NCBI RefSeq assembly: GCF_016132445.1
Contig: NZ_CP046056.1
Span: 2,163,501 to 2,227,500, forward strand
Direction: 5' to 3'
DNA length: 64,000 bases
Source of the DNA: Venatoribacter cucullus
Lineage (GTDB): Bacteria; Pseudomonadota; Gammaproteobacteria; Pseudomonadales; Oceanobacteraceae
Shown here: positions 1,122-3,712 of the stretch, in pieces
Numbering within the stretch: position 1 is the first letter of the stretch
Layout of the letters: each line of letters opens with the position of its first letter
Translations under genes and position numbers: made by a program
Notes under the pieces: generated by a model
Databases searched by the model: none
What the model was told of the DNA's origin: nothing
The model's input: only the letters and a program-made list of their open reading frames with translations

Positions 1122-2147
1122 ATGCAAAGCAGTGTTCTTGAAATTGCCGGGGTCAGCATCCAACCCGGCACAACCCAAAAAATTGAGCTGCCGGTTGGCC
1201 GCCTGTACACCGATGCCTCGGTGGCCATGCCCATCTATGTAAAACGTGGCCGCCGCGCCGGCCCCACCCTGTTTATCAGCGCCGCCGTGCACGGCGATGA
1301 ACTGAACGGCATCGCCATTATTCAGCGCCTGATCGCCAGTAAAGCCCTGAACAGCCTGCGCGGTACCCTTATCGCCGTGCCGGTGGTGAATGTGTACGGG
1401 GTGATCAGCCACAGCCGCTACCTGCCCGACCGCCGCGATTTAAACCGCTCTTTCCCCGGCAGTAAAAAAGGCTCGCTGGCGGCGCGCATGGCCAATATGT
1501 TTCTGGAAGAAATCGTCAGCAAATGCGATTACGGCATCGACTTTCATACCGGCGCCATTCACCGCTCTAACCTGCCGCAGATCCGCGCCAATTTAGACGA
1601 TGAAGAAACCGCCGCCATGGCGCGCGCTTTCGGCGTTCCCGTGTTACTGAACTCCGACGTGCGCGACGGTTCATTACGCGGCTGCGCCGCCGAACGGGGC
1701 GTAAAAACCCTGCTGTACGAAGCCGGCGAAGCGCTGCGCTTTGACGAACTGTGCATCCGCGCCGGTGAGCGCGGCACCATCAATGTGCTGCGCCACCTAG
1801 GCATGCTGCCGAAAAGCCGCAGCCGCAAAACCGCCCTGATCGAACCCGTGGTGGCACGCACCAGCGCCTGGGAACGCGCCACCGACAGCGGTTTTGTGCA
1901 ATACCATAAAGAACTGGGCGACCGGGTAAAAAAACAGGAATTACTGGCCACCATCCGCGACCCGTTCGGCACCGTACTGGCGGATGTGCGTTCCCGCTAT
2001 GAAGGCATCATCATCGGCAAGCAGAACATTCCGCTGGCGCAGGAGGGTGAAGCAATGTTTCACATTGCGTACTTTCATCAGCCGGATGATGTGGTGGGGG
2101 GCATCGAGCAGTTGCAGGATTTGTTGCCTGACGAGGCGCTTAACTGA
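1122..2147 (+). CDS. Succinylglutamate desuccinylase/aspartoacylase family zinc hydrolase
   Basis: A 341-residue member of the M14-like AstE/aspartoacylase family, zinc enzymes that hydrolyse amide bonds of N-acyl amino acids or glutamyl groups. Zinc ligands are visible as the HxxE motif in VHGDELNG (H57, E60) and H142 in DFHTG. The family motif DLNRSFPG lies at about 106-113, and E200/E203 in LLYEAGE are candidates for the catalytic glutamate. The C-terminal 90 residues (GFVQYHKELGDRV onward) resemble a biotinyl-like beta domain seen in this family. AAGGAATCT precedes the ATG. It follows rimK closely, so it may act on the same glutamate-tailed substrate, but that is inference. The true substrate is unknown. 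Confidence 0.85.
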   Translation: MQSSVLEIAGVSIQPGTTQKIELPVGRLYTDASVAMPIYVKRGRRAGPTLFISAAVHGDELNGIAIIQRLIASKALNSLRGTLIAVPVVNVYGVISHSRYLPDRRDLNRSFPGSKKGSLAARMANMFLEEIVSKCDYGIDFHTGAIHRSNLPQIRANLDDEETAAMARAFGVPVLLNSDVRDGSLRGCAAERGVKTLLYEAGEALRFDELCIRAGERGTINVLRHLGMLPKSRSRKTALIEPVVARTSAWERATDSGFVQYHKELGDRVKKQELLATIRDPFGTVLADVRSRYEGIIIGKQNIPLAQEGEAMFHIAYFHQPDDVVGGIEQLQDLLPDEALN

Positions 2148-2378
2148 CGCTGTTGGCCAGCCCGCCGGGCTGAGGTTATTGCCAGCCCTGGCGGGCTGGT
2201 TGGCTGCCACTGCGTGGCAGCTTTTTGCGGCTTCCAGCCGCTGTTAGAGCTGCCGCTGCGCGGCAGCTGATGCGGGGCTCCGCCCCTGCACCCCAATGTA
2301 AGGAGAGGTGTCTCCTTACAATCCTCTCTGGCCCGCGTCCCAGCTGATCCTGGCTAAAAAAATCCGGTTAAGCCAACG

Positions 2379-2428
2379 GATCGTAAGGCACGTCCTGTGC
2401 CACGATCCTTGCCCGGAGTCATCCGGGC
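2379..2428 (+). repeat. 50-base inverted repeat, left arm
   Basis: This arm starts with GATCGTAAGGCACGTCCTGT and ends with ATCCGGGC. Its reverse complement is found at 2637-2686 with 3 differences in 50 bases. It contains an imperfect GATCGTAAGGCAC/GTGCCACGATC stem followed by a GCCCGGA/TCCGGGC hairpin. Confidence 0.9.
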
Positions 2429-2636
2429 ATGGCTACCGTATTTTTTACCTGCGGGCTGGCCCGAATGGGCCGGGAAAAACCGCAGCAATCTGAATAGATT
2501 TTTGCGGCCTACGGCCGGATATTTTCTTTTGGTTTTTTGGTTTTGCGCGAAGCGCACAAAAAAACGTTGCCGGCGAAGCCGCTGCGGTTTGAACCGCGCC
2601 TATAGCACGCCGAAATGAAGCGTCATTGACAGGTCC

Positions 2637-2686
2637 GCCCGGATGATTCCGGGCGAGGATCGTGGCACACGACGTGCCTTACGATC
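2637..2686 (-). repeat. 50-base inverted repeat, right arm
   Basis: This is the partner of the arm at 2379-2428, in opposite orientation. It lies inside a larger potential multi-branched fold closed by TATAGCACG (2601-2609) with CGTGCTATA (2722-2730) and by GTCATTG (2622-2628) with CAATGAC (2699-2705). Confidence 0.9.
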
Positions 2687-2899
2687 CGTGGCCGTCGGCA
2701 ATGACGGTGAATGAGGAAATACGTGCTATACAGCGCAAAGCTGGAGCGCGAGGATAAGTTCCTCGCAATCGGGGTGCAGGGGCGGAGCCCCGCATCAGGT
2801 CGCCAACGGCGGCCTGTCCAGCGGCTGCAGGCCGCATAAGCCGTCACGCAGTGACGGCTAAACCAGCCCGGCAGGGCTGGCAGCGGACTGGCAATAACA

Positions 2900-3712
2900 T
2901 CAGCCCAGCGGGCTGAAAAACTCCCGCACGGCATTGCGGTACGTTTGCTCGAGCACGTCCTCAACGCGGATACCTTTCACTTCAGCGATTTTCTCAGCCA
3001 CAAAGGGCAAATACACCGGCGCATTTTCCACGCCACGGAACGGCACTGGGGTTAAAAACGGTGCATCGGTTTCCAGCAGTAAATGCGTCAGCGGTGTAGC
3101 CGCGACTACTTCGCGCACGTTGTCGGCTTTATTGAAAGTAACAATGCCATTAATGCCTAAACAAAAGCCCAGTTCCACCGCCACCTGTGCCAGTTCCATA
3201 CCCGAAGTGAAGCTGTGTACCACCCCTTTGCGGCGCAGCTGCGGCGCGTATTCACGCAGCATCGCCATGGTGTCGTCGTCGGCTTCGCGGGTGTGAATCA
3301 CCACCGGTAAATCACACTCGACCGCCAGCTGTAATTGGCGGGCAAAGACCTGACGTTGCACGGTGCGGTCGCAGTGGTCGTAAAAATAATCCAGGCCGAT
3401 TTCCCCTACCGCCACCACTTTGTCGTGGGCGGCGTGGGTCTGAATGTAGCCGGCGGTATCGTCGCTGAATTTCGCCGCTTCATGCGGGTGTACGCCGAGG
3501 GTGGCGAACACATCAGCAAAGCGTTCCGCCAGTGCCAGTACGCCGGGCATATTGTCCGGCTCGACGCTGATGCTCATAAAGCGTTCTACGCCAATGGCGC
3601 GGGCGGCGGCCAGAATCTCGTCCGGGGCGGCGGTTTTTAAATAATCGAGGTGAAAGTGGGTCTCGATAATCGGCAGGCCGTAGGCCGGAATGGTGCGGTT
3701 TTTCTTGCTCAT
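2900..3712 (-). CDS. TatD-family metal-dependent hydrolase
   Basis: A 270-residue TatD-family protein, a TIM-barrel metal-dependent hydrolase; characterised members are 3'-5' DNases. The metal ligands are visible: HFH at 19-21 in ETHFHLD, E103 in VGEIGLDYFYD, H139 in VVIHTREADDD, H165 in VVHSFTSG and D215 in LLETDAPFLTP. The start at 3712 follows the lumazine synthase stop by 3 bases, so the two form a translationally close pair. The stop codon sits in the outermost hairpin of the adjacent palindromic block (TCAGCCC...GGGCTGA). Which of the TatD, YcfH or YjjV subgroups it belongs to cannot be settled by eye. Confidence 0.9.
   Translation of the reverse strand: MSKKNRTIPAYGLPIIETHFHLDYLKTAAPDEILAAARAIGVERFMSISVEPDNMPGVLALAERFADVFATLGVHPHEAAKFSDDTAGYIQTHAAHDKVVAVGEIGLDYFYDHCDRTVQRQVFARQLQLAVECDLPVVIHTREADDDTMAMLREYAPQLRRKGVVHSFTSGMELAQVAVELGFCLGINGIVTFNKADNVREVVAATPLTHLLLETDAPFLTPVPFRGVENAPVYLPFVAEKIAEVKGIRVEDVLEQTYRNAVREFFSPLG

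Follow-up and report, generated by a model that had tools for sequence, protein, structure and literature searches.

An intergenic block of two inverted, unlike halves in Venatoribacter cucullus as a probable copy of a MITE-related, BIME-like repeat family at gene 3' ends

The block at positions 2148-2902 of the window (by which we mean the whole 64,000-nucleotide stretch of DNA that was analysed) is probably one copy of a composite repeat family that is related to miniature transposable elements (MITEs), resembles BIMEs in plan, appears to be immobile in this genome and sits at the 3' ends of genes. The family is dispersed through the genome, its half-elements can base-pair extensively, they face one another in heterotypic pairs, its islands avoid the gaps between divergent genes, and in relatives the same core is found in MITEs.

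The block is made of two inverted halves whose matching parts come in the same order. A repeat search returned five inverted pairs in that order, namely 2158-2188/2885-2915 (90%), 2180-2201/2861-2882 (95%), 2200-2223/2838-2861 (79%), 2234-2297/2768-2831 (75%) and 2376-2428/2637-2689 (53 nt, 94%), as well as five further pairs that are shorter or out of order. The left half aligned to the reverse complement of the right half with a score of 115, while 200 dinucleotide shuffles scored 20.6 +/- 3.3 with a maximum of 32, and the alignment contains the block CTGATGCGGGGCTCCGCCCCTGCACCCC at 28/28 identity. The mirror-symmetric hairpin mosaic given in the preliminary description, including its near-perfect block of 28 bases, is thus confirmed. 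The block has a G+C content of 60.5%, against 56.2% for the window as a whole, and lies between convergent genes: a plus-strand gene of 341 aa (1122..2147, its stop at 2147), which we take to be desuccinylase/aspartoacylase-like, and a minus-strand gene of 270 aa (2900..3712), presumably TatD-like.

From the gene end to the centre, each half carries the hairpins h1, h2 and h3, the h4 core, and then a long stem with two apical hairpins. On the left, reading from the sequence, the outermost hairpin CCAGCCCGCCGGGCTG (2157..2172) is part of one of the inverted pairs and is followed, all on the plus strand, by h1 (TGCCAGCCC..GGGCTGG, 2180..2199, genome 2165680) at the outer end of the half, an inward-pointing h2 (GCTGCCACTGCGTGGCAGC, 2203..2221, genome 2165703-2165721), h3 (GGGGCTCCGCCCC, then TGCACCCC, 2274..2286), the h4 core hairpin of type A (GTAAGGAGAGGTGTCTCCTTAC, 2298..2328) with its trailing mirror motif CCTCTC, and a body (2340..2459) in which sequence reading and folding place a stem CCAGC...GCTGG with apical hairpins at 2378-2408 and 2411-2428. 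A core-model match at genome 2165772-2165828 (window 2272-2328) covers h3 and h4. The centre (2460..2595) contains T- and A-runs and two hairpins, one at 2505-2517, which is a terminator-like site, and the other GCGCGAAGCGC. The right half, on the minus strand, has a body (2596..2736) whose centroid fold shows a stem GCGCTGTATAGCACG...CGTGCTATAGGCGC with apical hairpins at 2657-2687 and 2637-2654, then an h4 core hairpin of type B (GCGAGGAACTTATCCTCGC, 2740..2766; genome 2166240-2166264, window 2740-2764) with trailing CTCCAGC, h3 (2779..2791; core-model match at genome 2166244-2166293, window 2744-2793), an inward-pointing h2 (GCCGTCACTGCGTGACGGC, 2840..2858, genome 2166340-2166358), h1 (2863..2882, genome 2166382) and an outermost, terminator-like hairpin (2900..2916) that overlaps the stop codon of the right-hand gene. 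Stem and core of the left half are of type A and those of the right half of type B. Both types have separate copies at other places in the genome, and since the types differ the two halves are more than a simple duplication of one sequence.

Searching the single contig of the genome (2,827,114 bases) with the block gave 134 matches, the best with 89% identity over 605 bases. These matches form about 31 islands, 27 of them with the diagnostic core; the islands were grouped by hand, several are fragments of 130 bases or less, and 29 surrounding stretches were examined. Together with the relatives in sister species described below, this bears out the earlier suggestion of a dispersed composite repeat family. 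The same preliminary description had also allowed for the scar of one large inverted duplication at the locus, or for an assembly chimera, and the inverted order of the halves is indeed what either would produce. We give this reading next to no credence: the two halves differ in type, and each type has copies of its own at other loci; the pattern is repeated across roughly 31 islands of one contig; and other species have facing pairs as well. An assembly artefact is accordingly unlikely, and the scar is left unsupported by the unlike types, by the pairing counts given below (20 unlike pairs out of 20) and by the pairs in sister species.

Across the islands, the outer modules of the halves are frequently repeated or absent. 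The hairpin h1 reads GCCAGCC..GGCTGG, h2 reads GCYGYCACTGCGTGRCRGC, and h3 is either GGGGC..GCCCC with TGCRCCCC or a GCGGCC..GGCCGC version. A search for h2 that allowed one mismatch gave 39 occurrences in the genome. Of these, 34 flank a like-oriented core on its outer side, four have no core nearby, and one is found on the far side of an island with a single core. In eight other genomes of the genus, the h2 pattern had 2 matches against 4 for a reversed control pattern. One island (L047 2965-3165) has hairpins of the h1, h2 and h3 types only, with neither core nor body, so these modules can also stand alone. Small inserts of the forms xxxCATGGATGxxx and xxxGCAGGAGCxxx, with a conserved loop and a variable stem, were seen inside half-elements (L041, L052, L055, L038, L062, L214), both in this genome and in relatives and within cores as well as bodies, as if another tiny repeat family inserts into the hairpins of the half-elements. 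REP-like hairpins (GTAGGAGCG..CGCGAT) stand beside some islands or elements, at L048 and L050 in this genome and at L083, L084 and L095 in relatives.

The stem and the core come in three sequence types, A, B and C. Among 48 cores in the genome (one of which was left untyped by the sequence pattern and was assigned to C from its sequence), 40 form 20 facing pairs and eight are single. The pairs are BC (10), AC (6) and AB (4), with no like-with-like pair, while random pairing gives 6.6 like pairs on average and none in 0.037% of trials (P(0)=0.00037). Every one of the 14 B cores is paired, which leaves types A and C among the eight unpaired cores. Facing pairs also occur in sister species (L097, L164). 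A long, near-perfect palindrome, as would arise from like halves, is unstable, and avoidance of such a palindrome may be the reason why facing halves are unlike.

The gene context of the islands is uneven. By our own gene calls, 13 of the roughly 31 islands lie in convergent gaps and 18 in tandem gaps, and no island was placed in a divergent one. For the 27 islands with a core, the flanking strands are +- in 12, -- in 10, ++ in 5 (15 tandem in all) and -+ in none. Divergent gaps make up 7 of the 28 gaps of at least 60 bases in the window and 0 of the 27 core islands (P about 0.0004), a baseline that is small, coming from one 64-kb window and a home-made gene caller.

Such a distribution invites a reading in which the islands belong to a BIME/REP-type system, that is, opposed short palindromes spread, now or once, by a RAYT-type Y1 transposase and having a role at mRNA 3' ends or in supercoiling. 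Like BIMEs, whose units pair Y with Z types, the present islands are scattered between genes as mosaics of oppositely oriented palindromic units that form facing pairs. According to the excerpt of PMC3733652 drawn on here, REPs lie chiefly in gaps flanked by convergent or unidirectional genes, and the heterotypic tail-to-tail pairs, the mosaic make-up and the avoidance of divergent gaps resemble the REP pattern described in that excerpt. However, BIME units measure 20-40 bases against about 300 for the present half-elements; the GTAG/CGTC tag of BIME/REP units was not seen by eye on the present hairpins, a judgment made without counts on single hairpins that are short; and the genome gave no match to Y1_Tnp (PF01797), a domain present in 6 of the 9 genomes of the genus that were searched. 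Because no Y1 transposase was found in the genome, we regard the family as BIME-like in plan and not as a BIME, and consider a true BIME/REP system improbable.

The preferred reading, a MITE-related family, draws on the company that the core keeps in other species. A covariance model for h3-h4, which was built from A/C cores and is weak for B cores, found 49 cores in the V. cucullus genome; 18, 17, 14, 11 and 4 in five of eight other genomes of the genus; 37 in a genome of another, neighbouring genus (G054); and none in 34 other genomes from other genera of the family. Two genomes (G004 and G007) had no match to this model but have a B-like core by pattern. In an order-wide sample of 293 genomes, only the genome's own matches appeared at E 1e-5 (0/292 others) under strict filters that left few candidates scored per genome. 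Loci matching the B-core pattern come from Thalassolituus alkanivorans, T. marinus, a Thalassobium MAG, and Saccharospirillaceae, Oceanospirillaceae and Pseudomonadota MAGs, besides scattered unrelated names; the core model did not bear out the pattern matches from beyond the family, in Nocardioides, Chloroflexi, viral contigs and others, and these are not counted as members. Applied to 40 pattern loci, the core model gave 20 matches in 19 loci, none viral and none with an unrelated organism name, one of the confirmed loci being titled only 'Pseudomonadota bacterium bin02'; the model is an imperfect judge, as it misses the family-type locus L124. No description of the repeat family was recognised in the titles and abstract openings of the open-access papers surveyed, and one may still be published.

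In the sister species, the core lies inside five elements with TAATGCTGTTCACTTAA-like terminal inverted repeats (TIRs) of 17 bp, 567-569 bases apart. Four of the five have target duplications (L164 12/12, L170 12/12, L169 11/11, L165 10/11) and none was found at the fifth (L173). When the flanks of L164, L169 and L170 are joined, they form a terminator-like hairpin with A and T runs on its two sides. The G007 genome also contains a 1423-bp element bounded by CAATGCTGTTCACTTAA, which differs from the MITE TIR TAATGCTGTTCACTTAA in its first base, and which encodes a 444-aa transposase with Nterm_IS4 and DDE_Tnp_1 domains. Two copies of it were read, one with an 11/11 duplication (L162) and one without (L163). 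The IS4-family element is intact (L162 1774-3108, minus strand; L163), and the copy with the 11-bp duplication lies in a terminator-like hairpin. Many contigs of G007, G006 and G004 start or stop near the TIR of this element, so the IS4-family element is probably multicopy there. Its transposase is present in G007, and fragments of it stand at the ends of contigs in G004 and G006; the same search found none in G002, G003 and G008, though all three carry the MITEs. Judged by these ends and duplications, the core of the sister species is carried in IS4-type MITEs.

Two further observations concern the variety of these elements. An 865-base element (L168) is bounded on both sides by such a TIR and has an A-type core in one of its halves, with no duplication, which suggests an exchange of modules. 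A second subtype, with TIR CACTGCTGTCCCACAGTTT, was found as pairs 494-678 bases apart at 7 distinct places (56 loci scanned); duplications were found at two of the seven (L073 10/10, L212 9/10) and none at the other five.

The islands of V. cucullus itself lack these marks. The IS4-type TIR TAATGCTGTTCACTTAA had no match in the genome at up to one mismatch, a search that more divergent ends could escape, and the outer ends of the islands (GCTGTACGCCAGCC) seem, by eye, to resemble the IS4-type TIR. Nor is there a sign of target duplications at the islands, the longest stretch common to both flanks having a mean of 8.5, against 8.3 between unrelated islands (20 islands). The IS4-type transposase of the relatives had no match in the genome. 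A single DDE_Tnp_1 match was found (L039 150-1094, plus strand, 314 aa), about 1.9 kb from an island; the protein is presumably IS5-like and, as a probable member of a different family, was rejected as the partner of the repeats. At a locus of G002 (L233 2480-2910), the left flanking gene has an orthologue with no island behind it; a tatD-like gene lies about 3.6 kb further and the convergent junction is not shared. Because the gene order differs, this is no clean empty site. What follows the left-gene orthologue there, in tandem, we take to be an FMN riboswitch look-alike and a lumazine-synthase-like gene. With neither TIR, duplication nor IS4 transposase, the window's copies are related to IS4-type MITEs but are not members of them. 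The earlier thought that the block might be part of a known insertion sequence holds only indirectly, through the core inside the relatives' IS4-type MITEs, and not at the window's own locus. Signs of mobility are seen in the relatives only, and the MITEs may instead have captured a pre-existing element.

In another reading, the functional unit is a genuine structured RNA or a folded single-stranded DNA site for which transposons are merely carriers. In the h4 stem, 98.9% of cells are paired and 16 cells show double changes against 6.3 in shuffles, although just two pairs contribute these double changes and the sequences compared are relatives of one another. The apical hairpin variants change on both arms (GGCAC/GTGCC, GGCGC/GCGCC, GGTAC/GTACC). 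In B-like bodies, GCGC and a two-base loop are followed by one of three 8-base arms, TCTGGCCC, TGCAGGAC and TATAGCAC, or near variants, and every one of the three is matched by a different complement, at 0 or 1 mismatch, before the GCGC, at 123-129 bases, so that the topology is kept while the stem sequence changes. Against these points, the searched stretch offered no partner with one mismatch or fewer for 17 of 92 B-like arms (overlapping loci being counted repeatedly), and in a cruder fixed register another downstream stretch scored one pair better than the partner in the genome's own B stem (12 vs 11). The arms of a palindrome can, moreover, co-vary without selection, by template switching. 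An Rfam 15 scan of the block gave no family at gathering score and four matches up to E=1, the best with E 0.11, and the distribution of the core is patchy, with none in the 292 other genomes sampled from the order. We hold a structured unit with transposons as carriers to be unlikely.

A bolder form of the same thought concerns the trailing pyrimidine run of h4, which is the mirror image of the 3' arm. Among 27 distinct A/C-type cores, the run varies in step with both arms (A - T - trailing T, or G - C - C) in 26, split 13 and 13, with one exception. For the B type, the agreement is 8/8 distinct cores, 7 and 1, with only one A-T-T; these counts are for family loci only, and with unrelated loci mixed in the B type gives 13/22 distinct. 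The run keeps a parallel register with the purine arm, the arrangement of a pyrimidine-motif triple helix and not that of an alternative hairpin; the idea that the trailing motif pairs with the 5' arm in antiparallel fashion was considered and dropped, as the co-varying position does not fit. The h4 core could thus be a three-strand element, and the half a conserved folded RNA or single-stranded DNA moved by mobile elements between terminators, an idea that we find quite improbable. Possibly very few independent changes stand behind the third-strand count, so shared descent can also explain it.

To return to the preferred reading of a MITE-related family, both halves fold well as RNA, with z values of -9.75 and -6.6 against shuffles and 0 of 100 shuffles folding as well for either half. 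Terminator-like sites, as pattern matches, number 4 in the block against 1.1 +/- 1.2 in shuffles, one of the four being inside the right-hand gene. The absence of core islands from divergent gaps and the folding of both halves agree with the preliminary idea of a bidirectional 3'-end RNA element, as a prediction, and the block probably provides bidirectional terminator or 3'-end hairpins, as far as its sequence indicates. A full copy would be two unlike half-elements placed tail to tail and meeting in a centre with T- and A-runs. The family most likely spread through insertion into terminator hairpins (bidirectional terminators in the clear cases of the relatives), which would leave genes intact and place copies behind them, and the element's own hairpins could replace the terminator broken by the insertion. 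In V. cucullus, the family would have arrived or spread by the MITE route and then lost its recognisable ends and its transposase. From then on, oriented modules may have been duplicated or swapped, reshuffling the copies module by module, with the copies persisting without a transposase and presumably no longer moving. The resulting fixed mosaic behind genes would end transcription in both directions and leave a stable hairpin on mRNA 3' ends.

Among known systems, the nearest on the transposon side are the IS4-family MITEs, with which the relatives' copies share 17-bp IS4-like TIRs and, in clear cases, duplications of 10-12 bp; the window's copies have no such ends or duplications. MITEs are typically AT-rich according to the portion of a review cited here (PMC10969869), in contrast to the elaborate hairpin array of the window's block with its 60.5% G+C. 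The SPRITE, BOX and RUP elements of Streptococcus pneumoniae, as the same portion presents them (PMC10969869), are likewise small, clustered repeats with terminator-like hairpins and nested insertions; the two-half plan sets the present elements apart in a comparison made by description and not by sequence. The insertion sequences whose targets are REP palindromes (ISPsy8, ISPa11, ISPpu9, ISPpu10, ISRm22 and others) likewise use hairpin DNA as a target, going by an extract of PMC1525189, whereas in the sister species the target is a terminator hairpin in the clear cases and the element is of the IS4 type. The family is a large, unusual cousin of known bacterial repeats and not something wholly new.

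For annotation, the family accounts for about 30 intergenic islands in the V. cucullus genome and probably for some contig breaks in its relatives. It also links two classes of bacterial repeats, the BIME-type mosaics of intergenic palindromes and the IS4-type MITEs, and allows them to be compared within one bacterial family, where some species have elements with TIRs and duplications in terminators and another has a dense mosaic without such ends. With both forms in one family, the origin of mosaic palindromic repeats, and of their unlike facing halves, becomes directly testable.
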